Shown piece by piece: positions 1,582 through 64,000 of a stretch of DNA of 64,000 nucleotides (position 1 is its first letter; each line of letters begins with the position of its first letter). Made by a program: the position numbers and the translations under genes. Source of the stretch: Theobroma cacao (taxonomy: Eukaryota > Streptophyta > Magnoliopsida > Malvales > Malvaceae); NCBI RefSeq assembly GCF_000208745.1, contig NC_030853.1, positions 23,701,282 through 23,765,281 on the forward strand, read 5' to 3'. Under the pieces are notes generated by a model, which was not told the DNA's origin, made no database searches, and saw nothing but the letters and a program-made list of their open reading frames with translations.

Positions 1582-2314
1582 CTTCGCTTAAAAACTCTGG
1601 GAAAGTGGGGGAGTTTGTGTCAGAAACCTTTCAAAAACCAAAGATAACGGTGGTAATCATGGGCAACAAGCATTGAATGATTGTACTCAAAAAACAAACG
1701 TATCAAAGGTTAAAAGACTATACCAGAACGGAAGGCACAGATGAATTGATTTTGATTAATGTGAAAGTCCGTGTTGCCACTTTGACTAACAAGATATCGG
1801 CAGTACACTCCACTTGATCATGTTTATTTATTCCAAAAGCAAATAGTTTAGGTTGATTGAAGCAAACTTTGTTAAGTTCTTTTATTTTATTTTCCATTTT
1901 TTATGTTTTTAATTCTCTATGAGTAGTTTATGTTGAGTTATTAACTTATGTATTAATTTCTTTTATTAGATGTACATTACTCACAATATATGTCTCAAAC
2001 TATACCCTTATACTGAGTTATCTGTATTAAACTAAAACAACAATAGCTAGTGGTGGAGTCACTAATACTGAATCATCCTTTCAATTTTTTTTAATATTTT
2101 TCCTTCTATTTGTATTATCTCTTTTTCAATATTTAAAGACACGAATTATTTTAAGTTATAAAATGAATTTTTTTAGTCTTTTTCTTTCTTTTACTGTTTG
2201 TTTCTTACGATTTAATTTTATATTTTAGCTAGAAATTTAGATGCATTATATGAAATATAATCATCAAAATATTTCATTATATGAAATATTTACAATAGTT
2301 GCATTACCCTTTAT
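1582..2314. other. AT-rich spacer upstream of the NBS-LRR gene
   Basis: About 730 bases between the start of the resistance gene and the truncated copy. It should hold the promoter and 5' leader of the gene to the left. I see no coding frame, repeat or convincing TATA position in it. Confidence 0.5.
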
Positions 2315-3050
2315 ATCATTAACTCCAGACAAACAAAGCTTTAGGTCGTCGTCCTATTGGTCAACCATTCCACAGACCATCAAGTACAAGAAGATAATGT
2401 TTCCCTTCAAAGTTTCTCAACTAAAGCAACCTTGTTTTCAAATATTGAGATTTGCTCACCAATAAAATGATCAAAGGATCTGTTTTAAAATCCTTTTGGC
2501 ATCAAAATTAGCAGACACACACACCCAACAATGTTGCATCAAACTGCCTTGTTACTTCCACATCATTATATACTAGTTTTTCCAAGGTCTGCCATACCTA
2601 CTAACAGAGAGAAGTGGTTTTGAAACACCACTTTCCCTTCCACGTTTGAGTCATCTAGACAGGAGACTTGTCTCCTCATTTGATCCTCCAACTTCAGGAG
2701 TTATGCCTACAGCTAGCTCATCCAAGGTTGGCCAATTTGTCAGGTTAGGGTCATCCAAGGATTTATGAATGTCCTTAAGTTCTTTTAGCCATCTTGAAAC
2801 GGAACTCATCAAGCACATCATCGGCCTCAGTAGCAACATCTTTGAGCTTTTCCAGCCAAAGCTTCACTGAGTTATCCTTTGTTTGCCTTTCCTCTGCATC
2901 TTGCAAGAAAGCTATATATAATTATAGCTAGTGAGTCACCAAGCTTTTCTAGCTCCTCCTTGAAACCCCATGCGAGGTCGATCTGTTCTTTGGTAATTGA
3001 AATCACTCGACACAACTCTACTTAACAGCACTGAGAACATCTTCAGCCAT
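2315..3050 (-). pseudogene. Truncated CC-NBS-LRR pseudogene
   Basis: Degenerate copy of the neighbouring CC-NBS-LRR gene, same strand. It begins at an ATG (3048-3050) reading MAEDVLSAVK and hits a stop at the next codon. Other frames continue the homology: WGFKEELEKLGDSL, then [35 protein letters not shown], the latter matching the CC region of the intact gene, then segments around the linker, and finally sequence equivalent to kinase-2. Homology stops near 2315, so the P-loop region is eroded and everything after kinase-2 is missing. Several frameshifts and internal deletions are needed to align it. It is most likely a dead tandem duplicate. Confidence 0.85.
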
Positions 3051-3855
3051 TTTTGCTACAATACCCCGAAAAAGTAAACAAGTGTCAGAATAACAAAAAC
3101 CAAAGAAAGAAGCAAATTTTGCAGTACTGGAAATCATGGCAAGTTGGCAACAGACACTAAACGGTTAAGAGGTTAATCCAAAATTTTATCTATAAAATGG
3201 TGCATAAGCAAATCCACAAAGATTTCGGATGATGACTAGTTGACAAGTAAGCATCAGCATCAACCCGCTAAAAGAAATTGGAAAAAAGCAAACGACATAA
3301 GGTTTTTATTTTCGGCAATGATAAGCCTTATTGGTTACACAATAAAATATAGTCTTCTCCTTCCTAATGATCAAGATTTATAACACTAGTGCATGTAAAA
3401 CATGGGATGTATGCATAGGCTTCTATTGCTATAACTGCAGTCCTAGGACATATTTGAGGTCTAGGAAACATATCGTAAAAGAGAAAAGGAATTCCAACAA
3501 AATTTGACTCATATACGGAGGGGCCAAGGACCCTATCAACCATGAGTAACAATAAGGATATGGAATTCATACATATACAGAAGGGAGGAATGATACAAAG
3601 GTTGAATATTTGTTTAGGTGAAAACAAAAAATTGGAAGATATGTGGTAAATAGGACACTTCGTAAGCAGCTTGGCTATCGGTTTGATTTCTGATGGAAGG
3701 ATTCAAGAGTAGATTTTTATCTATTTGCCCAACTGCTGTTATATGTACATCTCAGATTTGTGAACTTTGAGCTGTAAGAAGTTCAATGCTTCAGTGATTT
3801 CAAATGAAATCTTACGTGTCAAGGATGTCCTCTTGAAGCATAAAAAGGAACAAAC
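3051..3855. other. Spacer containing the probable 3' UTR of CASTOR
   Basis: No coding sequence recognised. The part next to 3855 should be the 3' UTR of the CASTOR gene (minus strand). The part next to 3051 is the upstream side of the dead NBS copy. Confidence 0.4.
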
Positions 3856-6800
3856 TCATTCCTTCTCTGTGATCACCACAAACACATCCTTCACTGACCA
3901 CCTTCTTCTCTCACTTTTGGCTGGTGGATTGATAACAGCTCTCTCTGCTCTTGCTAAACGATAACCTATAACAATCTCTCGCCTCTGCCGAGCTCGTAAA
4001 ATTATTTCATAGAAACTCAATTCTTCACCTTCATGAAGGTAAAGATCTGCATACCTAATATGCAGCTCATTTCCCTGATAAAACCCAAAAAATTCATAAA
4101 TGATTAACAAGGTTATTGTAATGAGAAGATAAATGATAAGTTCTACGAGCAGCAAGAACCTGAATAAACAAAATGGCTGGCAAAGAGTCAACAGTATAAG
4201 TTAATGCTTCAAGTGCGATAGAATTGTGCAAATGACTTCTAATCAAGTGTTGTTATACTGCTTTAAATGGTTTTAGATCCTTCATAGAACAAGACATAAC
4301 ATATAGTCTGAGTGACCTATATATCATTTTCATTATCTTTCAATCCTTTGGATGAACATGCCAATAGTACAAAGCTTAGTCAAGAGGTTGAGAAACCAAT
4401 TCTTGTCTCTGTAAGTTAATGAAAACAAATGCAGAAGTTTGTTCTTCCCAATCTTTCATGACCTAAACCACATTAAAAAATACATGCAAATACACTAGTG
4501 CTTTGTGTAACAATGAAACTCCCTAAATTATATGAGAAAAGTAAAAGCAAAGATAATAATTAATCTAAGCTATTGGAGCATCAAAAATAACAATTATCAG
4601 TTATATATCAACACTAGAGATAAAAAGCTTTCCGGGTACAGCATTTCTGCATCTGCAAATCTGTAACATAGGAAAAGCAAAGTTCAGCCAACTTTTTTGG
4701 GCAGAAACAGTCCTTCAGTCAAAAGGATAACCAGTTAATGAATATTAGTAAGGTATTAAATTCTGCCTGGACCAAATTGACTCATATCTTCTTCCCAACC
4801 CGGTAGAAAATGGGCAAACATCACTCTTACACCTCATCTATAGTGTCATGCTGTCAATTATTACACATTGGTCCTTCCAACTATCTTTGAACCTTGACCT
4901 GTATTTTGTAGAAATCACACTCAAAGGTAGTATTTGCTAGTCAAGGCCCACATGACTAGAATTAGAGAAGATGTGGATTTATATATAGAAATAGTGATAT
5001 CTCATATACAGATTACTTTGTATGACAGAAGAAATACTATTTACACAGACAAATCTCATTCACATGATTTAGAAGCTCCAGGATAACTTTTTCACAAGTG
5101 ATAAGTTTTTGAAAGGCAACAGCATTAGTGCAGAACCATTTAGCCAAGCTCTTTTCTTGTTTTGTTACTACTTATAAACAAGTCAACATAAAGGTTTCAT
5201 GAAAGAAAGAGTACCTCTTCTGCAAAGAGCTCTTCCAGTACATCATTTATTTGCCGATCCTCTGCAACCATAGCTAATGCCATACTGACTAGCTCATTTG
5301 ATAAAACATAATCACTAATCTTTGACATGGATAATAAATTTTTAGTCCTTGGATCCAGAATTTCACTGATTATTACTGATCTATCTGAAGCTTGCTGCAT
5401 CTCCCCAATCCAGGAACCTTGTGAGAAACTTCCTCTGTGACTGCGTGTTACCATAGCTTCTCTAAACGGAAGACGCTTGGCCTGGCAAAAACAAAATGTG
5501 TAAATTACAAAATTTATGGTTGTGAAAGACAGAAAGACTGAAAGTCAATATCTGAAGTAAAAGCGTGTGATATGCTGTCAAGAATATGCCCGTCATGACT
5601 AATAAGCAAACTTAAAATTTATTCTTATAACTTGTTGATAAGGACCAAGGCGTTCACAAAGAAATTTTCTAATAGTGCGTTATAAACTCGTAAAATGATT
5701 GTTCAAAAAGAACAATAATAACTTCTTAAGATAAGCTCAATATCCAATCCATTAAATTAAATTTGACTTAAAGATCAAAACTCAAAGCACCTGAATATCA
5801 CGAATCAATAGTAATGTGGCAAGAGATCTGGAATCAGCTTGAATGGCTGAATCTTCCACAGATTCATCAGCCAGAATTAGGATCTGTGCAGACCACAAAA
5901 ATATGTTCAGAAATTAAAGATGGAAAAATATTGTAGAAGCCCTGAAAATTGTCTCTTCATCTATCCTAGTTAAAAAAAAAAAAAAAAAACAAGGATATAA
6001 ATGACCTGCTGTGTTTTAATTGACATTTTTAAGGAAACTCATTTAGTAGGATAATAGCCTTCATCTTTAAATTTTCATTATCCAACCTTCATCTAAAATA
6101 TACATTGTCATGGAAATCTGCTAGGTGGCTGCCATGCCTTCTAACATTTACTGTGATTATTAACTGACATTTCCTTACTGTATGCCGTTATCATAAATAC
6201 ACCAGTGATAGAGACACTTACTGAATCAAAAGATTCCAAGGGAAGACTTTCTAGGTTACGTCGTATAACTGCATTCCCTTCACGATTAACCAGTGTTATA
6301 TTTACCAATCTTGTGAGGTCCAGACCACCATCAATAAGCTTCTTTTCCCTCTCATTTTCAAGAACCTCATTGAACATCCAGAGTTCTGACCCAGGAGCTA
6401 GGAAGGCATCCAAAACCTAAACAAACATGAATGAATATACATTGCTAATGTAGCAAAGAATGAACTGCATTCTCTATTGTGCATCAAAAGCAAAAATATG
6501 GAAAGAAAGTCTAGAATTTTATGAAGAAATATTGCAATTAACATTAGATATTGAGTGACAATATCATAGAGAAATTCTGAAACATCAATCACCACAGTTT
6601 ACACAGTGGGAACTGCAGTCAAGAAGCACTTGGCAGCATCATTGTAGATCCCTTGTAATATTACCATAATCATGTCTTCTATATCCCGTCGCCAACCACA
6701 AAGAAGTATTTTTTCTGTCAACTTTGGGACAATAAAGTCTCTGGGTAAATTTCCTCTCCATACCTGCAGCATTCAGCCGAAGAGAAAAAGGAATTAGGAG

Positions 6801-9800
6801 CTTCAATTAGAAAGAACGTACCACAATCATATCATCAATGTCTCTCCTCCATCCACAAAGTAGAATCTTCTGGGGCTTTCTTGCTGGTCGAGCAATGTGC
6901 ATGAATGATGCTTCTTTGACCTGAATGACCAAATTGATTATATTTTTGTAAGTTGTTTTAACTATGGTATGCCCTACTATCTCATCATGGGCATCATCCT
7001 ATTGTGCCAAACCAGAACAGCTTCTCTTTCATGAATCAAAACCTAAACGTGGTCCGCTCCCTTTACATTCCTACTTTATTTCACTCAATTTTTTAGACTA
7101 TTCCATAATTATAGCAACAAACTCTTTATCACATTACACTGAGAGCGAACATAGTGAAAGAGAAACAACCAATTGGCATTCTCTCCAATTTTTTATCCAA
7201 GTTCTTCACTAGTTTCTTGTGTCATCATTGATTATGTTGACTGCAGAACATAGCAATGGCAAGTATTTTATAGTAATAAAGGAAAGGTCATTGTTGCAGT
7301 ATTCTATCACTTCAGCAAGTAAATGGTAAGTGACAAGAAGATCTAACTCTAAGTCTTACTATAGACAAAAGGCAGACAACAAATCTATCATAGACCTACA
7401 ATTGCATTCATTAAATTGTGCATACCAGTACAGGTCATCAGCTCAATGTACAGATGACCACTTCAGATTGAGACAAATTTACAGAACTAAATGAAAACTG
7501 GCTGGAGACCTGATAACGATAAAACCATACTATAATTCTGGCCAAATTGCATGACTGTTTTCTTTCTTCCGCCTATCTGTTTCTGCATTTATTTATTTAT
7601 TTTATTGATTTCTCCATCTAGTGAGCCTCAATGCAGCCTGACTTGAATAAGGCAAGTATCTGATGCCAGATTGGCCAAATAGAATGACAAACAAAAGGAA
7701 AAGGCTAGCAAGAAAGACCAAGAAATTTATTCTGCATTCATAAATGAAATCACCATAGGTAACGTGGCTGGAGCATAGGTGTCATCATCTTCTGCTATAA
7801 CAAGGACTTCATCGCCTTCTTGTAGAACATATGAGTCATCAGGATTCAGGATAATTTTACCCCCATGGGAAGCAACCTTGACTCCACAAGGAATAGCATC
7901 AGGAAAACTGATCAATACATCCTCAAATTGCATACCATCCAACTGAGGCCATCTTTTTATGTAGAACTCACAGTTTTCAAAGCCAAGGATATCTTCCCAT
8001 ATCTGTCATAACCAATCCACAATTATTACAAATATAAATGATAAGGAAGCACTGATAGGGCTGAATACCAAAATAATAAAAAGAAAGAAAATTAAGTCCA
8101 AAAAGATCAACAAGGAACATCAACGTTCACACTGCTGCAAGTGCAATATCACTGAACATAGTTCTCATGGTAAAAATTGCATAACCCAACCTGTGCAAGT
8201 CCTGGCTGCCGTGCACATTGAATCATTAAGCGCCCAATAACATCATGAGCTACAACAGTCTCAACAAGTTCTCCACCAACAAGTTTAACAAGAACCTCGT
8301 TGTCAAGATCACTTAGTTCCACCACAATATGCCCTCTTAGCCCTTCCTTTACTCCTGTCAAACTTAAGACTGTTCTCAAAGCACGAGCATCACTCTGCAA
8401 TAGACCATGAATAAGAGTGAGCACCTGTCATCCAATATCACAGATACATCACATTAACACATCTGCTTAAGACCTGGTCAGCATTTCCATCTTCAGCAAG
8501 GACAATAATTGAACGGGCCTTGGATACAGATACCTAAAAGAATTGGCATGTCAGCATAACAATTAGTGGCGCCAACATGTACAAACACTTTCAGCATTAG
8601 ATATCGTCAGAGAAAATATTTCCCTGATCGTGTAGCACAATGTATAGGTGAATCTAAAGCAAAGTGAAGGTGCAGCAATCACCCTGAAGCACCAGAATTG
8701 ACACAGAAACCTAGGCAAGTTGATTACAAATCTAGAACAAGGTTGACAAAGAACTTGATCTACTTCTGCTACCAACATGTACCCATTTCCTTTAATTTCT
8801 GTGGTTTATAAAAGCGAGAGACTAGTAAAACACTGTTCAAAGGGAAAAATGTGCAAATCAGTCCATATAAATCTCAATGATATGAAGAATGCAATTATAA
8901 TAGCTAAGCTTGGTTACAAAGCTTACAACATCCTTAGGCTTCTAGAAATTGCTTCAAATTAATGAGATATTCTGTAACTTAAAATGAGGGATAGATATTC
9001 ACTGGCTCAATCACAGAAACCATTTTGATATCGATTAAAATCGCCCTCCCTGTTTCCTCAACTGCATTACCTGATTCAGTTTTTTATTTTTAATTACTTT
9101 AAGAGATTTGAATCATTTAAATCTGATAGCTCAGCTTTTCAGTGGAGGGTAACTTATTTTGACATATGAATGGAGAAGAAAAGAACCATACTTTTTTAAG
9201 GTCAGCCAGAATCAGAGGGCTACCGCTTCTGCATATCACAGATGTCCCTCTGAAATCAAACTCCATTTTAGCAATATCAAGCTCCATCTCCTCCTTGTCC
9301 CGTTCAGCCATCACTACGACAATCCCTCCACCCAAACTCTCATTAGCTATGGCAAGTTGGTTGAGCAATGAACCCTGCATCACAACAAAATAATCACAAT
9401 ATAAGGCACAACAGCATAAAAAGCTTCCATACATGCCAATATTGTATCTGAAAAAACTTATAGAGATATCCCAAGTTACCAAAGTGGAATAGGACAATTT
9501 TGGCAATAGCTACAAAAAGGCCAAACCCTCTTATTGTGAAGTCAGAAGGATAATTATAACCCAAACACTAAATCACGCAGTAAGCCTTGGGTCTTGCATA
9601 GAGTACATGCATACGCAAATTCATATATACGTATAATGTAGAACAAGAATGTGGAAACAGATAGATAGAAATCATAGTAGGGAAATTCAGAAAGACAGAA
9701 AAGACTAGGGAGAAATTAAAAACTAGGGAGGGAAAACCAGAGAATTAGATATAAATAATAAACAAAAATGGAAACAGAGGGAATCAATAGAGTGGAAATC

Positions 9801-12170
9801 TGAAACTCAATATTCCAAAACCTCAATATCATCATTCAAAACTAGTGAAACTGAAACAACATGGGTACTTATAAGCTAAACCCTAAACCCTAATAGCAAA
9901 ATATCAAATATAACCCTAACTGCCTTAATAATTACCTAAATACTGAAAATTCGAATTGAACACATAAAACACAGGAAAATAATTAAATGAAATCCTAAAT
10001 AATTTTTAATTGTTCAATCAACTTCTCTTTATCCTGTATCACCATGTGTGTGTATATATCATCAAAAATGTATAATAGGTATGCACATGGTGTAAGTATA
10101 TGTAAAGGTTCTAATGCTAGAATGTTTAGCCTCTATTATGGGGGAAACAGATAATATATAGTAGCTCATTCCCATCAGCCAATAAGCACAAAATTAAATA
10201 TATAAAACCCAAATGAAGAGTCATAACCATAGATAAATTATGGAATCAAAAGTTTACCAATTTATCACTCCATCCAAGAATTAGAGTGTGGTTTTGCTCA
10301 ACAACCTCACTTCTTCCTTTCCTCAACGAATCAAACTTCTCAGAAATTGCATCAGAAACAAGCCCGAGCATCATTGCAAATATAAGCATCCCACCAAAGC
10401 TAATAGAAACAGAAACTAATCTGGGACCGATACCTTCAGAGTTGGCATGGTTACCTGAATCAGCAACAAAAGTCCAAGATAACCAAAGGCAATCTGCTAA
10501 GCTATCATCAGTGACGCCAAAGAGTGCCAAACCTCCGAGACAAATAAGCATTAGAGTAGCAACCAATAAAGCAAGTGGCTTAGCATATGGATGAACTGAT
10601 AAAAAGACATCTACCCGATATTCAAGTTGCTTATTAAGAGAAACCTTTTCAGAAGAGTTTTCTGAGGATCTCAACTTAGATACATGGTCAATATACTTGA
10701 AAATAAAAATAGGTATGGATAGCAGCGCGAGTGAGACAATCAGAGCTAGAATCTTTAAGCCTTTACTTGAAAGATGATCACTCTCTTGCAACATAGTATT
10801 AGTATCTACAGAGTCCAACAAATTGCAAGCTTGTAATCTGATATTCAGATTCGAAATTTGGTCCTACACGCAAGAAATAATTTTCAGTTAGCAAGTTTTC
10901 TCACATGAACTTACTCAAATATTATTACATAAATAAATCAACCCTAGATTTGATAGATGTTCAAAAAAGTATTCATGAACAAGCTTAATTATCACCATTA
11001 TTTTCCTGTAACTTAGAGAAATGAATTAGGCTTCCTCCCAATGGCAGAAAACTAAGGTATCATTTGGTTGTTACTTTTGGAAGGAAAAAGAAAAAAATGC
11101 ATTTCCATACAAAAGCAAATACTACTAATACTTTTATATAATTAGAAATTAAATTTTTGTGGGTAAAAAATGGATTATTTATCTTTTATATGACATAATT
11201 AAATTGAATGTGTGTTATATTTTCTATTCACTTCATTTAATCAATTAGACCATTGCATCATAGCAACTTTTCCTGGTAAAAAAGAAAAGCAAAAAGCAAC
11301 AACCAAATACAGCCCCAGTTAATCATTTACAAATGAATCAAGCATGCATGAACTTTTAAAAAGTTCAGTAAGCGGCTGTAAACTCTTTAAAGTATAAAAA
11401 TTTTGATCAAAATGAAAAATGAACTGAATCACGGGACCAAAAAAAAAACATGTGCATAGACCAATAACTATACAACTAAAAAACATGGCCACTAAACTAA
11501 GCATAAAATATGATCAGCTTTGTAGGGAAAGGCAGCATAAATATTGAATGTACCTGCAATTCGATGACTCGGTTATGTAAAGAGAAATTCTTGTGGACCA
11601 AAGAACCAAAAGCTGTGATTAAAATCTGTAAAGCAAAGCAGACAAAAACTATAAGAAAATCAAAAGGAAAAAGAAGAGTTTTTAATTTTTGAGAGAGAAA
11701 GTGGGGAAAAAAGAGCATACAGCTATAGAAAACGCCATCTTCCACCGGACTTTGATCCGTTGACAGGCAATCCGGATACCCATTTCACCGGACGCCGTTT
11801 TGTCACTCAAAACGTTTTGTTTTCCACCCGAGACGGCATTAGAAACGCCCCGTTTCTGCTCCAAAACGGCGCCGTCTTCTTCTTGTTTCGACGATTTCTC
11901 GCTCCTACGAGTGAAGTCGACTCTGCGGCGAATCCGACTGTACTTGCGGTCTCCATAGGGGGCGGAATCGGACAACGAAACGCTTCGAAACGTCGGCGTT
12001 TTAGAAGGCTTCCAATCAGGAGGAGAAGGGGGGGAATGCCTGGGGATTGTGGTCCACCTTCGGGGGTAATTTGGGGATTGTGAAGGGTGGGAAGTGGAGT
12101 GGATGAAGGAAGGGGAAGGGAAGAACCAGTCCCTGCTGGAGGAAGGAGAGGATTCTGAATCATGGGACAT
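3856..12170 (-). CDS. CASTOR: Ion channel CASTOR, complete 12-exon gene with an alternative exon 8
   Basis: Nuclear-envelope cation channel required in root symbiosis for perinuclear calcium spiking. Exons (minus): 11721-12170, 11554-11625, 10258-10863, 9192-9374, 8474-8533, 8191-8394, 7754-8002, exon 8 as either 6822-6920 or 6665-6763, 6222-6416, 5791-5883, 5215-5481, 3856-4074. All junctions are GT..AG and all joins are phase 0, giving 898 residues with one version of exon 8 (Lotus CASTOR is about 850). The start MSHDSESSPSSSRDWFFPSP matches the family's N-terminus. It has a disordered basic N-terminal region, hydrophobic segments near residues 145-165, 209-232 and 270-290, the pore signature ADSGNHA (308-314), then two RCK-like domains (HTLILGWSDKL and ILLCGWRRDI). 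The C-terminus KDVFVVITEKE is typical. Intron 2 carries a MITE. Family assignment is very secure; the pairing of exon 8 versions is inferred. Confidence 0.96.
6665..6763 (-). other. CASTOR: CASTOR alternative exon 8B (99 bp)
   Basis: Second version of the same protein segment, again exactly 99 bp, phase 0 at both ends, with acceptor CAG/GTA and donor ATG/GTAATA. It starts VWRGNLPRDFIVPKLTE and ends KILLCGWRRDIEDMIM. This version resembles the published Lotus CASTOR sequence (RG.LP.DF..PK pattern, from memory), so it is probably the canonical exon. It lies 58 nt downstream of 8A. Confidence 0.87.
6822..6920 (-). other. CASTOR: CASTOR alternative exon 8A (99 bp)
   Basis: Coding exon flanked by CAG/GTC at its acceptor and GTG/GTACGT at its donor, phase 0 at both ends, 33 codons. 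It starts VKEASFMHIARPARKPQ and ends in the conserved KILLCGWRRDIDDMIV. It follows exon 7 and precedes 8B in transcription order. The first 17 residues differ from 8B and the last 16 are nearly the same. Confidence 0.85.
11056..11316. mobile_element. MITE in CASTOR intron 2
   Basis: About 260 bp with imperfect terminal inverted repeats. The left end reads ATCATTTGGTTGTTAC and the reverse complement of the right end reads CTGTATTTGGTTGTTGC. The interior is AT-rich and non-coding. The TTTGGTTGTT core is common at the ends of plant MITEs (Harbinger or hAT type). I cannot define a clean target-site duplication, so the superfamily stays open. Confidence 0.6.
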
Positions 12171-14971: not shown

Positions 14972-16000
14972 ATGGAAATTGTTACGAGGGAAAGTGAAAA
15001 TGCTTTGTCAGGTCCAAGGCCAATGGAGTGGTCTACTGTTCCATATGCTCCTCAAGGACCAGATAGAAATGGAAACAAACGCACATCAAGTCTGGAATCA
15101 CCAATAATGTTGCTGACGGGGCATCAGAGTGCTATATATACAATGAAGTTCAATCCAACTGGGACTGTTGTTGCATCTGGATCGCATGACAGAGAAATTT
15201 TTCTGTGGAATGTCCATGGAGACTGCAAAAACTTCATGGTTCTAAAGGGGCACAAGAATGCAGTTTTGGATCTTCATTGGACCACTGATGGATCCCAGAT
15301 AATATCAGCTAGCCCTGACAAAACTTTGAGAGCATGGGATGTTGAAACAGGAAAACAAATAAAAAAGATGGCAGAGCACTCTTCTTTTGTGAATTCATGC
15401 TGTCCATCACGGAGAGGGCCACCTCTTGTTGTTAGTGGATCTGATGATGGAACTGCTAAACTTTGGGATATGCGTCAGAGAGGTGCCATCCAAACATTTC
15501 CTGATAAATACCAAATTACTGCAGTTAGTTTCTCTGATGCCTCAGATAAGATCTTTACAGGTGGTATTGACAATGATGTTAAGCTTTGGGACCTGCGTAA
15601 AGGTGAAGTAACCATGACACTTCAAGGTCATCAAGACATGATAACAGGAATGAGTTTGAGTCCTGATGGTTCCTATCTTCTCACCAACGGTATGGATTGT
15701 AAACTCTGCATATGGGATATGCGCCCTTATGCGCCACAGAATCGCTGTGTAAAAATTTTGGAAGGGCACCAACACAATTTTGAAAAGAACTTGTTGAAAT
15801 GTGGCTGGTCACCTGATGGAAGCAAGGTCACAGCTGGTAGTTCAGATAGGATGGTGTACATATGGGATACGACAACTCGACGCATCTTGTATAAGCTTCC
15901 TGGCCACGCAGGATCCGTGAATGAAAGTGTCTTCCATCCTAATGAACCTATCATTGGCTCATGCAGTAGCGATAAACAGATTTATCTAGGGGAGATCTGA
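14972..16000 (+). CDS. SNRNP40: U5 snRNP 40-kDa WD40 protein (SNRNP40 / Prp8-binding)
   Basis: WD40 beta-propeller subunit of the U5 snRNP, acting in pre-mRNA splicing in the nucleus. A single coding exon gives 342 residues, the usual plant length. At least seven WD repeats are visible from LLTGHQSAIYTMKFNP onward, with repeats ending in FLWN, RAWD, KLWD, KLWD, CIWD, YIWD and IYLG. The start is the first ATG after the spliced leader and is followed by the family's MEWSTVPYAPQGP-like segment (residues 18-30). An untranslated first exon ends at 13763 (AAG/GTTAGT); the leader intron ends at one of several AGs between 14957 and 14968. The leader intron carries a SINE-like insert. No oddities in the coding region. 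Confidence 0.95.
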   Translation: MEIVTRESENALSGPRPMEWSTVPYAPQGPDRNGNKRTSSLESPIMLLTGHQSAIYTMKFNPTGTVVASGSHDREIFLWNVHGDCKNFMVLKGHKNAVLDLHWTTDGSQIISASPDKTLRAWDVETGKQIKKMAEHSSFVNSCCPSRRGPPLVVSGSDDGTAKLWDMRQRGAIQTFPDKYQITAVSFSDASDKIFTGGIDNDVKLWDLRKGEVTMTLQGHQDMITGMSLSPDGSYLLTNGMDCKLCIWDMRPYAPQNRCVKILEGHQHNFEKNLLKCGWSPDGSKVTAGSSDRMVYIWDTTTRRILYKLPGHAGSVNESVFHPNEPIIGSCSSDKQIYLGEI

Positions 16001-45966: not shown

Positions 45967-46508
45967 TGTTGAAAAGAAATTTACTAATTTTTTTATTTGA
46001 GAGTAATCTACGAGGTGGTTGGTTTAATATTTAAAAAAATTTCTAAATTATTTAATAAGTTTTAAAAAATATTTATTTGTTATTAAATGTTTATATTTTT
46101 ATTTTGTCTAAATAAATTCTCATGATTTACAATTGACTGCATAATTTATCTTCAAATTTTAACTCTTTAAAGATCCTACAAAGTTTTAAATTGATTTTTT
46201 GTTTGTTTTGCCTAATAAATTGAAAATTTCAATCCTTAAGATGCAGTATTATTATTGTAATTTTAAGAATCGGAATATTTGAGCATTTAATTTTTTAGTA
46301 ATTTTATGAATTGAAAATATTTTGTTTAAAAAAAATGGAAATTCGAATTATGATTGATAGAAGAAAAAGAAAATTGCATGGGGGTTGGATACGAATACTG
46401 GGATTTGCTGCTTGCGAGACAGGCTTTCACGTTTTTCAGTCAATAAATTTACCTTTGTCCTTCTGTATCCTGGATTACAGCAGACGCAACCATCAAAAGC
46501 GAAAGCAA
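45967..46508. other. Rest of the FAM136A/SLP2 intergenic region
   Basis: AT-rich. The reading frame of SLP2 extends upstream to 46311 but without family similarity, so it is taken as promoter and 5' leader. Confidence 0.45.
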
Positions 46509-47708
46509 ATGGAAAACAGCACCAAACCACTACAACAACAAAACCAATCATCTCCAACATGCGAAAACCTTCCGTCACTCCTCTCGTCATTCGTCGACAC
46601 CTTCATAGACTTCTCAGTCAGCGGTCTCTTCTTACCCCAACAGCAACAAACTCCTCAGAAAGCCCTTCAAACTCATATCCCTTCCCCCGATCGTCTAGTT
46701 GCCATCGGCGACCTCCATGGCGATCTTGAGAAATCCAAGCAAGCCTTCCGTCTCGCCGGCCTCATTGATGGGTCCGATCGTTGGTCGGGTGGGTCCGCCA
46801 CCGTTGTTCAGATTGGCGACGTGCTTGACCGTGGTGGGGAGGAGCTCAAGATTCTTTATTTCTTGGACAAGTTGAAGCGTGAAGCTGTTAAAAGTGGTGG
46901 GCAGTTGATAACTTTGAATGGTAATCATGAGATAATGAATGTGGAAGGTGATTTCAGGTATGTAACTGAAAAGGGTTTAGAGGAATTCAATGTTTGGGCT
47001 TATTGGTATGGTGTAGGGAACAAAATGAAGAGTTTGTGTCATGGGTTGGAAAAGCCTAAGGACCCTTTTCATGGGATCCCTCTCTCGTTTCGTGGCGTGG
47101 CCGAAAGGTTCTATCATAGTATCAGAGCGAGAATTGCTGCATTGAGACCTGATGGTCCAATTGCTCGTAGATTCTTAGCTGATAATTTGACTGTTTTGGT
47201 TGTTGGGGAGTCTGTTTTCGTGCACGGAGGGCTTTTGGAGAAACATGTGGATTATGGATTGGAGAGGATAAATGAGGAGGTGAGGGATTGGATTAATGGG
47301 TTGATGGGGAGGCGTGCACCGGGATACTGTAAAGGGAGGAATGCTGTGGTTTGGTTGAGGAAGTTTTCTGATGAGTTGGCAAAGAATTGTGATTGTTCAC
47401 TTCTAGAACATGTCCTTGCTACTATTCCTGGTGCAAAGAGGATGATTATGGGTCATACGATTCAAGAGATTGGGATTAATGGTGCTTGTGATAATAGAGC
47501 AATAAGGATTGATGTGGGAATGTCGAAAGGATGCATCAATGGGTTGCCTGAAGTTTTGGAGATTAATAGGAATTCAGAGTTGAGGGTGTTGACTTCGAAT
47601 CCAATGTATCAGAACAAGAATAAATCTTATGCAAATGCTGAAAGGAAAGAAGGGCTTGGATTGTTAATACCAGAAAACGGGCCAAAACAAGTTGAAGTGA
47701 AAGCTTAG
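46509..47708 (+). CDS. SLP2: Shewanella-like protein phosphatase 2
   Basis: Metal-dependent PPP-family protein phosphatase of bacterial ancestry. Single exon, 399 residues from the ATG at 46509 (MENSTKPL); Arabidopsis SLP2 is about 390. An in-frame ATG at 46311 would add 66 unlike residues and is rejected. PPP motifs: GDLHGD (67-72), GDVLDRGG (103-110), GNHE (138-141), VHGG (238-241), and GHT (315-317) close to the C-terminal metal-binding region. In Arabidopsis, SLP2 lies in the mitochondrial intermembrane space and is activated by the Mia40 oxidoreductase; tyrosine-phosphatase preference is reported. Cysteines at 176, 274, 294 and 296 could serve in disulfide formation. No oddities. Confidence 0.95.
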   Translation: MENSTKPLQQQNQSSPTCENLPSLLSSFVDTFIDFSVSGLFLPQQQQTPQKALQTHIPSPDRLVAIGDLHGDLEKSKQAFRLAGLIDGSDRWSGGSATVVQIGDVLDRGGEELKILYFLDKLKREAVKSGGQLITLNGNHEIMNVEGDFRYVTEKGLEEFNVWAYWYGVGNKMKSLCHGLEKPKDPFHGIPLSFRGVAERFYHSIRARIAALRPDGPIARRFLADNLTVLVVGESVFVHGGLLEKHVDYGLERINEEVRDWINGLMGRRAPGYCKGRNAVVWLRKFSDELAKNCDCSLLEHVLATIPGAKRMIMGHTIQEIGINGACDNRAIRIDVGMSKGCINGLPEVLEINRNSELRVLTSNPMYQNKNKSYANAERKEGLGLLIPENGPKQVEVKA

Positions 47709-52543: not shown

Positions 52544-54889
52544 CTAGAGCTTCACTTCTCTATCAAAAATCCAACTGAACGGAATACTGGGTGCTTGCTT
52601 GGCCCTCCCTTGAGCCCTCTCCTCTAGCCTTCTGATTCTTGGAGGAAGTCCACACACATAATCTTGAGCTTTACGCCCATCCGCTGAAAGTCCAGTCAGC
52701 TCCTTCACCTTCCATCTCTCCACCAGGAACTCCAGAATATCAGCGTAGTCCTTGGCAGTGTAAACCCCAAGTCTTTGTGCAACAGCTGAGAAGTGGTCGA
52801 AAAGGTTGTCATCTCGGCCATCATACATCAAGTGGGCAGGCATCGAGATTTTCTTTCTCATCATGTCAGCAAAGGCCAGGACAGTACCATCAGGATCAAT
52901 CTCAAAGAGCTTTTCCACGATTTTAGTATAAGCTGTCTCATGGCGCCTTTCATCCGAGGCAATCGTCCCACATATTTGAGCCAACTTAAAGTCCCCATGC
53001 TCCTTGGCAAGTCTGGCTGTATTCCCATGGGAGATAAAAGTTGCCCTTTCTTGGAATGATGTGTAGATGAATCCAAGATAAGGGCTGTTTTCTGTGCGGG
53101 GATCCTATAAATACAGAAGAAGAGACTTTAAAAAGATTGATCAATAGGGGGGAAAAGAGCTCACTGGATGGATTGTACCACTCTAAAAATGGCATCTAGC
53201 CTGTATGTTTATTTTGAGGTGAAAAGTAGTTAAATGTCATAATATACACAATTTAGTGAAATTCCAGCATTGATACAGTGCAATGTTAAGATGAATGCAT
53301 TTTCACAAGGTGTAACTCCAAAATAGAAGATAAATAGAAACGAAAAGGAAGCCTATACTTTGTGTGCATGGATTTTCTCATCCCCTCCGCACTCAAAGAA
53401 AACACCACCAAAAGACTAAAGAAAAAATAACTTAATAAATTGTCACCAAGAGACCCCGATATGCAGTCCTTCAAAGAATTGCAAAGGATTTAATAAAGTC
53501 ATAAATGTCAAGTGCATTTAAAGGTTCAAAATCAAACTATAATGAGTGAATAAATTGAGTAGCAAGCATCTTACCATTCCTGATCCAATCAAATACTGGA
53601 TTGTCTTCTCAATTTGTCTCATGTCCACTCTTCCAGACAAGTAGAGATACTTATTAAGTAGATCACCATGCCTATTTTCTTCAGCTGTCCATGCCCTCGT
53701 CCAAATTGCCCAAGAGGTGAGGCTAGCACCCGTTTCATCAAGAACTCCATCTAAGGTATTAAGCATTGTTTGGTAAGTTGGAAGGGCTTCCTCTGTGATC
53801 ATATCACCAACCAAAACAACAAAGTAATCATCTGGAATCTCCTTAGCCCTTTCCCTTAGTTCTTTTACTTGCTCATCAAATCCATCAGAAGCAGGATCTG
53901 GAAGAAAATCCTGGGGTTGCCAACATTTCTCAACTGGTTTGAGGTGAACTAAAATGTTCTGCTCAGCCCAGTTCTCCAAAGATTTAAAGATCTCAATCTT
54001 TTGTGGTGGCATGGAGTGGGTGACCTGAACATGCACCTCCCGAGGAGGCATGAAAGGCTTTTTGACATTCTCAACCTCTCTGCATTAAGTAAATAAATCC
54101 TATGTAAGCAAGGATTACATTCTCACAGTTCAGATCTGCAAGTAAGGATTAAAAGGCAACAATAAATTGCATAAGCACAAATCTTATCTCTTTACTGCAT
54201 GTTCCAGAATATCCAGCACATGAAAACAATAAAGCAGGGACCAAAAGGATATGCAATAACAATTTATGAAACATCTTTAAATGTTGGCCCAAAAATAGCA
54301 GCTTTATATACTTTGTGTAAGATACCCCAGGCTGCTGATTACAAAACCAGACTACGTTTCAACATAACTAGTAATACATTATCAAATAGAGTCATTAATT
54401 ACTGGGCCATAAATTAGAACTCAAGTTCTAAAATCCCAGAAGCCACAATTTAGTGCGAAAATATTTAGTGTCCGAAGCAAAGCCCTTTAAGGCTAGAGGT
54501 GCACCAAATATAAGGAAAGGAACATGTAGGAGATCAAATGAGAGTTCAGGAAATGGGGTCAAATCATTATTCGCACAAGGTCTGCCACTGTGAATATCAC
54601 CTTATGAAATGCGAAAAGGATTAGTTTGTCATTTTAACTTGCTCAAACTAGTCCCAGCTGTAACTCAACACAGCCAGTACATGACAGATAAAGATTTAAG
54701 AAATATTTTGCTTTGAGATGTTCAATGAAGTACAAGCATGTTACTGCAGAAACCTCACTGTTTGCAGTGCACAAACTACTTGTAAGGCCTTGTCCCTCTC
54801 TGCAAAGTACATGTAATCGGCTCCCATGTTTCTTTTTACATTTCTTTTTAAAACAAAGTGCAAATGCACTTTTAATAATTGCAACTATA

Positions 54890-62889: not shown

Positions 62890-64000
62890 CACTACAAAAA
62901 AAAACAGGTTTTTTCTGATGGAAAAAATTTTGTTAAAATTTTTCGACGGATTTCCGACGAAAATTTTTCAACGGAATTTTTTCGTTGGAAATCTATAGGT
63001 AAATTTTTTTTTGGGGGGAAAAAATTTCAACCACCATTTTTTTCAACGAAATTTCCAACGGATTTTTCGTTGGAATTTTCCAACGAAAAATTTTCCGTTG
63101 GAAATCCATTAGAAAGTTAAATGATTCAAAAAATTTAAAGACCGGTAAAGTTTTCAACAAAAATTTTCATTGGAAAAGGTTATTACCAACGAAAATTTTC
63201 TAATGAAATATTCCGTTGAAAAATTCTATTGGTAATAGTATTATTTTATTTAATTTTTTAAAAATATTTTATACTTTTTATAAATTTTATTAATCTTTTA
63301 TAAAAAAATAGATATTAGTAAAAGCAAATACATACATATTGAAGTTTATAATATTTAAAAGTTTAAGTATGTTTTCTTTTGATTAATTTTGTACATTTTT
63401 TTAAAACTTTATTGAATCATACATTAAAATTTAATTTTGTAACATTAAAAAAATTATAAAAAAAATAAATTTGTTAATTTTATGAAACTACATGATAAGA
63501 TATNNNNNNNNNNNNNNNNNNNNNNNNNNNNNNNNNNNNNNNNNNNNNNNNNNNNNNNNNNNNNNNNNNNNNNNNNNNNNNNNNNNNNNNNNNNNNNNNN
63601 NNNNNNNNNNNNNNNNNNNNNNNNNNNNNNNNNNNNNNNNNNNNNNNNNNNNNNNNNNNNNNNNNNNNNNNNNNNNNNNNNNNNNNNNNNNNNNNNNNNN
63701 NNNNNNNNNNNNNNNNNNNNNNNNNNNNNNNNNNNNNNNNNNNNNNNNNNNNNNNNNNNNNNNNNNNNNNNNNNNNNNNNNNNNNNNNNNNNNNNNNNNN
63801 NNNNNNNNNNNNNNNNNNNNNNNNNNNNNNNNNNNNNNNNNNNNNNNNNNNNNNNNNNNNNNNNNNNNNNNNNNNNNNTATATATATTAATATGTTTTAT
63901 ATGTAAGCTTATGGTAAATTTTATTTATATGATTACAGTTATTAATTTTATTAGTTATTATCATACTTTTTATAAAATCATATTGATAATTAATTATACA
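62890..64000. mobile_element. CACTA (En/Spm) transposon terminus, runs off right edge
   Basis: Starts CACTACAAAAAAAAAC at 62890, the conserved CACTA terminal motif, preceded by ATC as the possible 3-bp target duplication. The next 350 bases carry many short subterminal repeats in both orientations around TTCCAACGGA / TTTCGTTGGAA / TCCGACGAAAA, typical of transposase-binding arrays. The following AT-rich sequence up to the gap, and beyond it, has no transposase frame. The other end is outside the window. Confidence 0.8.
63504..63878. other. Assembly gap (375 N)
   Basis: Run of N within the CACTA element, probably an unresolved repeat. Any frame spanning it is meaningless. Confidence 0.99.

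Follow-up and report, generated by a model that had tools for sequence, protein, structure and literature searches.

Here we report a tandem pair of homologous exons in the gene encoding the nuclear Ca2+ channel CASTOR of Theobroma cacao, located in a 64,000-nucleotide (nt) stretch of the RefSeq assembly GCF_000208745.1 (contig NC_030853.1, positions 23,701,282 to 23,765,281), hereafter the window. The explanation that best covers all observations, to which we assign a probability of roughly 0.85, is that exon 8 of this gene exists as two copies, 8A and 8B, and that each mRNA carries one of them. An original prediction, made from the letters of the window, had proposed two consecutive exon-like blocks in this gene; both were recovered at their coordinates on the minus strand, each 99 bp long, open, in phase 0, preceded by AG and followed by GT. 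The nuclear Ca2+ oscillations on which root symbioses depend involve CASTOR (PMC6697748).

The cacao CASTOR gene extends on the minus strand from an ATG at position 12170 to a stop codon at 3856 and consists of 12 exons plus one, exon 8 being present twice (Table 1). 8A and 8B lie side by side, agree in length and phase and are homologous, with 14 of 16 residues common in their second half. Recounting the 16 codons of this common half gave 9 silent differences, 2 replacements and 5 identical codons, the same numbers as in the original prediction. The accompanying claim that the first 17 residues differ was correct for 16 of them; the first V is common to both copies via a silent change. Either exon alone keeps the reading frame, as had been proposed, and yields a predicted product of 898 amino acids (aa; stop not counted), both exons together yield 931 aa and neither exon 865 aa, all in frame. 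The 8A product is identical over 898/898 residues to the deposited protein P0069 ('ion channel CASTOR isoform X2 [Theobroma cacao]'), which confirms the gene model, and the 931-aa cacao model P0001 corresponds to both exons joined. The cacao product scores 1052.7 bits against LjCASTOR versus 895.9 bits against MtDMI1, and in the phylogenetic tree it falls among 32 CASTOR rows on a branch with 100/100 support, which assigns it to the CASTOR clade. P0069 contains the domains PF06241 (Castor_Poll_mid, 151.9 bits) and PF22614 (RCK, 34.7 bits), and the motif ADSGNH encoded by exon 3 is presumably the filter motif. Cacao 8B shares 22/33 residues with Lotus CASTOR, and cacao 8A shares 14/33.

The use of the two exons was followed in a collection of 271 proteins obtained with three queries, two of which were directed at 8A, so that the set is biased toward 8A. 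Cacao 8A matched 240 proteins, the best 120 of which were listed; the 8A of P0078 gave a list of 99 out of 101 candidates, in which 8B-only proteins would not appear; and an exon-8-neutral query, consisting of the Lotus CASTOR residues after exon 8, gave 1097 matches, listed for the best 120. The collection comprises 100 proteins with 8A only, 86 with both and 85 with 8B only, 8A being present in 186/271 (P0239, missed by the classifier's pattern, was assigned to class A by hand). Proteins with neither exon were absent among the 271, though exon 8 itself had supplied two of the queries. Within the exon-8-neutral list, the non-legumes are represented by 75 proteins from 45 species, of which 27 are A-only, 40 are B-only and 8 have both, and at least 14 of these 45 species have separate A-only and B-only protein models. 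Because such separate proteins occur in 14 non-legume species, we favor mutually exclusive exons as the interpretation, and the same proteins support the predicted existence of two isoforms that differ in the linker between the RCK1 and RCK2 domains. The A-only and B-only proteins of Cornus, Ziziphus, Alnus, Hevea, Ricinus, Durio, and Cucurbita maxima derive from equally long source contigs, and the Craigia pair P0091/P0231 differs at 19 positions, all of them inside exon 8.

A second count was based on 74 non-legume proteins labeled 'isoform X', which, like the species of the exon-8-neutral count, were picked and typed by hand from the listings. Exactly one version of exon 8 is present in 64 of them (44 A-only and 20 B-only), six join both exons, three keep the intron, and one uses an inner 3' site of 8B. 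In addition, 'lgn' contigs of 2.7-3.8 kb contain long open reading frames (ORFs) with either A (P0134, P0222) or B (P0206, P0252, P0254, P0267); the exons of the cacao gene span 8.3 kb, and therefore these contigs are probably spliced RNA. Strict exclusion between 8A and 8B (ALTERNATIVES), with one version per mRNA, is probable from these protein models, as the original prediction had supposed, with 6/74 isoform-labeled proteins still joining both exons.

The 58-nt intron between 8A and 8B is the shortest of the cacao gene, the next one measuring 79 nt. Its length in other plants was deduced from read-through proteins and amounts to 54 nt in Populus, Cucurbita, Phragmites, and Eragrostis, 66 nt in Papaver, and 56 nt in Linum and 58 nt in Erythranthe, where the following residues can encode 8B in a shifted frame; it is 52 nt in P0131, if 8B begins there as in related grasses. 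The range over nine sources is 52-66 nt (P0129 yields no intron length, and P0145, which ends too early, was left out of the read-through peptide test). All nine read-through peptides are compatible with an intron that begins with GTAAGT and has a CTAAY whose A is at +25 to +28, and a random peptide permits a CTAAY in +22 to +30 at a frequency of 0.065. In the cacao intron, the CTAAT with its A at +28 lies 30 nt before the 3' end, a second CTAAT has its A at +15, and the distance from the 5' splice site to the branch, predicted from sequence only, is below ~50 nt. When the cacao intron is kept, the frame reads VRSF and then meets a stop after four codons. Kept introns occur in Populus X5, Cucurbita X1, and Phragmites X2, and the 'lgn' protein P0131 (38 member sequences) ends inside the intron.

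These features suggest how joining of 8A to 8B could be prevented. With ~25-28 nt separating the 8A donor from the likely branch site, the U1 and U2 small nuclear ribonucleoprotein particles would be unable to assemble together on the short intron, and because the intron would be too short for both, 8A-8B joining would probably be hindered. The minimal length of plant introns reportedly lies near 70 nt, a value associated with Goodall and Filipowicz (1990). In OGDH, branch sites located 25-41 nt from the 5' site, under a steric threshold of ~50 nt, enforce mutual exclusion (PMC7969005), and a short intervening intron has also been named as the cause of exclusion in another report (PMC6071210).

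The original prediction called for a second 99-bp exon to be sought in other plants, and 8A was found in proteins of monocots, magnoliids, eudicots, and two gymnosperms. Among the matches listed, it occurs in rosids, asterids, early eudicots (Papaver, Stephania, and Coptis), magnoliids (Persea and Tasmannia), monocots (rice, sorghum, Curcuma, and Dioscorea), and the gymnosperms Cryptomeria and Gb_17779, the latter being presumably Ginkgo, as judged from its prefix. Every named row among the matches listed for the P0078 8A query is a seed plant, the three rows without species being two 'lgn' proteins and the query itself. In each of the last 16 columns, the majority residue is found at 92-100% among 85 distinct 8A segments and at 58-100% among 38 distinct 8B segments; in the first 17 columns, mean conservation is 78% for 8A and 82% for 8B, in sets of differing taxa. 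For this count, the end of exon 7 served as the sole anchor, with 260/271 proteins anchored and 22/271 unplaced or low-scoring proteins left out. The column conservation of 8A excludes chance as the source of this block, and the conservation of both copies indicates that both are under strong selection, in agreement with the proposal of protein-level selection on the two exons.

The age of the pair was approached using a tree built from 36 RCK sequences with the exon 8 part removed (rooted at the midpoint; bootstrap not settled), in which the two gymnosperm proteins, which have both exons, stand beside DMI1/POLLUX, apart from 32 angiosperm CASTORs (100/100). When the 271 proteins were scored over the part after exon 8 (five truncated proteins without a match there were dropped, and POLLUX was never queried by itself), the only ones closer to DMI1 were P0170, which is of the 8B type, and, narrowly, P0078 (401 vs 396 bits). 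Cryptomeria P0083 is not closer to DMI1 in this part, which speaks against placing the gymnosperm genes with POLLUX. As a rough result, the exon pair may date back to the separation of CASTOR from POLLUX or even further. Retention of the pair across seed plants would correspond to ~300 million years.

The distribution of 8A differs between legumes and other plants. Among the best 120 of the 1097 matches to the exon-8-neutral query, 8A was found in 0/25 legume species (40 proteins, from Bauhinia and Acacia to Glycine and Lotus), all of them 8B-only, versus at least 26/45 non-legume species (Fisher P = 2.6e-7 by species, with relatedness not corrected). Ipomoea triloba is 8B-only in this list yet has an 8A isoform in the list obtained with the P0078 8A query. 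No legume occurred among the named matches listed for the two 8A-directed searches (120 and 99 rows). Quillaja, which belongs to the order of the legumes but is not itself a legume, is represented by one protein with 8B. Thus distributed, 8A appears to have been lost in legumes. CASTOR was worked out in legumes, and this may explain why the exon pair seems undescribed.

To place exon 8 in the protein, the numbering of Lotus CASTOR was matched at twelve named residues, making exon 8 correspond to residues 565-597. The predicted location of the pair in the linker agrees with the Lotus CASTOR structure paper, which gives the linker as 553-580 (PMC6697748). The ligands of Ca(II)/Ca(III) in Lotus CASTOR include E552, D553, and D554, whereas R589 and R590 serve in the Ca(I) lock (PMC6697748). 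The E-D-D residues at the end of cacao exon 7 (AEDDDTYAP) equal E552, D553, and D554, and R589/R590 lie in the common half of exon 8, the Arg pair being kept in both versions. As exon 7 ends with the ligands and the common half contains the lock, the variable half (565-581), which belongs to the RCK1-RCK2 linker, lies between the two Ca2+ clusters. Binding of Ca2+ at both clusters tightens the RCK1 N-lobe to the remainder of the structure, and a bell-shaped Ca2+ curve has been reported for CASTOR (PMC6697748). From this arrangement, we infer that the swap, by replacing the RCK1-RCK2 linker, would give two channels with different Ca2+ responses, through a changed Ca2+ affinity or a changed bell-shaped curve.

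Several observations weigh against the proposed exclusive use of the two exons and its consequences. Direct joining of 8A to 8B is found in 76/271 protein models, 70 of them without an isoform label, and the six labeled cases come from Solanum, two Nicotiana, Salvia, a Populus hybrid, and C. melo makuwa. The 70 unlabeled models belong to the other 197 proteins (legumes included), in which joining is expected wherever an annotation yields a single model per gene, and joined forms score highest with an 8A query, which biases the set. The nine read-through peptides are related and were chosen by reading through, which favors short introns, and introns down to 56 bp have been validated (PMC6310983), so that 58 nt is no absolute bar to splicing. 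The absence of 8A from legumes refers to the listed protein models (the best 120 of 1097), not to legume DNA. AlphaFold predictions for the two Craigia isoforms (8A from alignment A1, with 37 rows out of 72 eligible A-only proteins, and 8B from A2, with 38 rows out of 67 B-only ones) reached mean pLDDT (predicted local distance difference test) values of 40.9 and 36.6 and were left unused. If both exons were constitutive, the normal protein would be 931 aa long and carry the linker segment twice, and the joined models, cacao P0001 among them, together with the in-frame character of both joins would be accounted for. We consider this very improbable, given the single copy in 64/74 isoform-labeled non-legume proteins, the 14 species with separate A-only and B-only proteins, and a 58-nt intron near the lower limit of splicing; the single-copy state of solved Lotus CASTOR and Medicago DMI1 weighs little, because these are legume proteins and 8A has not been seen there.

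A less strict regime is easier to entertain, while still rather unlikely in our estimate: double inclusion could be a minor third isoform in some lineages (Solanaceae and Salvia), or the kept intron could give a non-productive RNA that damps expression. The isoform-labeled double-exon proteins of Solanum, two Nicotiana and Salvia fit the former, and the introns kept in Populus X5, Cucurbita X1, Phragmites X2, and 'lgn' P0131 fit the latter, but the labeled joined models are a minority (6/74), some perhaps with copied names. The least credible alternative, to which we give almost no weight, regards 8A as a decaying functionless duplicate spliced in as noise; its absence from listed legume proteins does imply that a plant can live without it. 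A decaying exon is at odds with the 92-100% conservation of the last 16 columns in 85 distinct 8A segments, with an occurrence from Cryptomeria to rice and cacao, and with the excess of silent over replacement changes between 8A and 8B in the common half (9 vs 2). Two side observations concern joined forms. In the Solanaceae proteins P0039, P0041-P0043, P0045-P0049, and P0060, Thr replaces the near-invariant Cys of 8A (KILLTGW) and 8A is joined directly to 8B; the intron between 8A and 8B may be longer in those genes. In P0038 (Persea), P0119 (Urochloa), and P0068 (Papaver), 8A is joined to an inner point in mid-8B, as if to the nearest usable acceptor further down.

Mutually exclusive exons are known from other genes. 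In alpha-tropomyosin, studied by Smith and Nadal-Ginard (1989), exclusion is reportedly enforced by an unusual branch point location; that branch point is said to lie far from the 3' site, whereas in CASTOR the whole intron measures ~52-66 nt. A close likeness is with exons 4a/4b of vertebrate OGDH, which are likewise an ancient exon duplicate with two mutually exclusive exons and a size-restricted intron (PMC7969005). The difference in Ca2+ sensitivity between OGDH isoforms was shown in that work, whereas a Ca2+ effect for CASTOR is deduced; OGDH is an animal enzyme with mapped branch points, and CASTOR is a plant channel with a predicted branch site (PMC7969005). Mutually exclusive exons also occur in a seed plant in the MADS-box gene of Picea abies, which encodes a transcription factor and is unrelated to CASTOR (PMC6243048). 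The solved LjCASTOR structures (PDB 6o6j/6o7a/6o7c) represent the same channel in its 8B version, and the main text of that paper contains neither 'splice' nor 'isoform' and, in the parts consulted, describes no 8A form (PMC6697748). The original prediction knew of no published description of the pair, and no account was found in the literature as judged by titles and the beginnings of abstracts; the tables of DMI splice variants in PMC9114929 might mention it. What was already known is that isoforms are listed by automatic annotation, and the pair would be an instance of mutually exclusive exons with a steric intron. New relative to the earlier claims are a possible cause of exclusion, namely the intron, whose shortness recurs in other plants, and the lack of 8A in the listed legume proteins.

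Table 1. Exons of the cacao CASTOR gene and the intron between exons 8A and 8B (window positions).
Feature	Position	Strand	Basis
Exon 1, carries ATG	11721..12170	-	gene model
Exon 2	11554..11625	-	gene model
Exon 3, membrane part, ADSGNH motif	10258..10863	-	gene model
Exon 4, RCK1	9192..9374	-	gene model
Exon 5	8474..8533	-	gene model
Exon 6	8191..8394	-	gene model
Exon 7, AEDDDTYAP near end	7754..8002	-	gene model; comparison with Lotus residues
Exon 8A, 99 bp, phase 0, VKEASFMHIARPARKPQ/KILLCGWRRDIDDMIV	6822..6920	-	gene model; identical in P0069
Intron 8A-8B, 58 nt, two CTAAT branch-point-like sites (A at +15, +28), pyrimidine tract	6764..6821	-	sequence
Exon 8B, 99 bp, phase 0, VWRGNLPRDFIVPKLTE/KILLCGWRRDIEDMIM, form of solved Lotus CASTOR	6665..6763	-	gene model; Lotus comparison
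Exon 9, acceptor exon common to 8A and 8B	6222..6416	-	gene model
Exon 10	5791..5883	-	gene model
Exon 11	5215..5481	-	gene model
Exon 12, carries stop codon	3856..4074	-	gene model

The remainder of the window contains several other genes. A coiled-coil NB-ARC resistance-type gene (Rx_N, NB-ARC, and WH_DRP) at 7-1578 on the minus strand reaches the window edge, and the segment at ~2300-3060 on the same strand reads by eye like a decayed copy of the start of this adjoining gene. A single uninterrupted ORF at 14972-15997 (plus strand) encodes a WD40 protein and may be an intronless copy; we take the protein to resemble the U5 small nuclear ribonucleoprotein 40-kDa splicing protein. A calcineurin-like phosphoesterase ORF (Metallophos) is located at 46335-47705 on the plus strand. 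The gene at 52547-54084 on the minus strand has at least two exons, with FA_desaturase_2 in the ORF 52547-53104 and a further ORF at 53518-54084, and is presumably acyl-acyl carrier protein desaturase-like. Positions ~63460-63910 are unknown bases, read as X inside an ORF.

Taken together, these data allow us to propose a tentative evolutionary scenario, to which we give somewhat less than an even chance. Seed plants would have kept a splice switch for ~300 million years. It would have arisen before or near the separation of CASTOR from POLLUX, would not have persisted in the few sequences of POLLUX seen, and would have been lost in legumes; the 8A and 8B channels would differ in the tether between the Ca2+ clusters, and as a result nuclear spiking would differ in its Ca2+ range or its rhythm. 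A conserved exon swap in the gating ring, if true, would mean that one gene gives two sensors, and forcing the use of one exon would offer a handle on how spiking is set, both in roots and outside symbiosis. The loss in legumes, if true, would leave the main model species without one of the forms and provide a natural experiment on the changes of this pathway in nodulating plants. The current knowledge of CASTOR, derived mainly from legumes, would then cover just one of its two forms.

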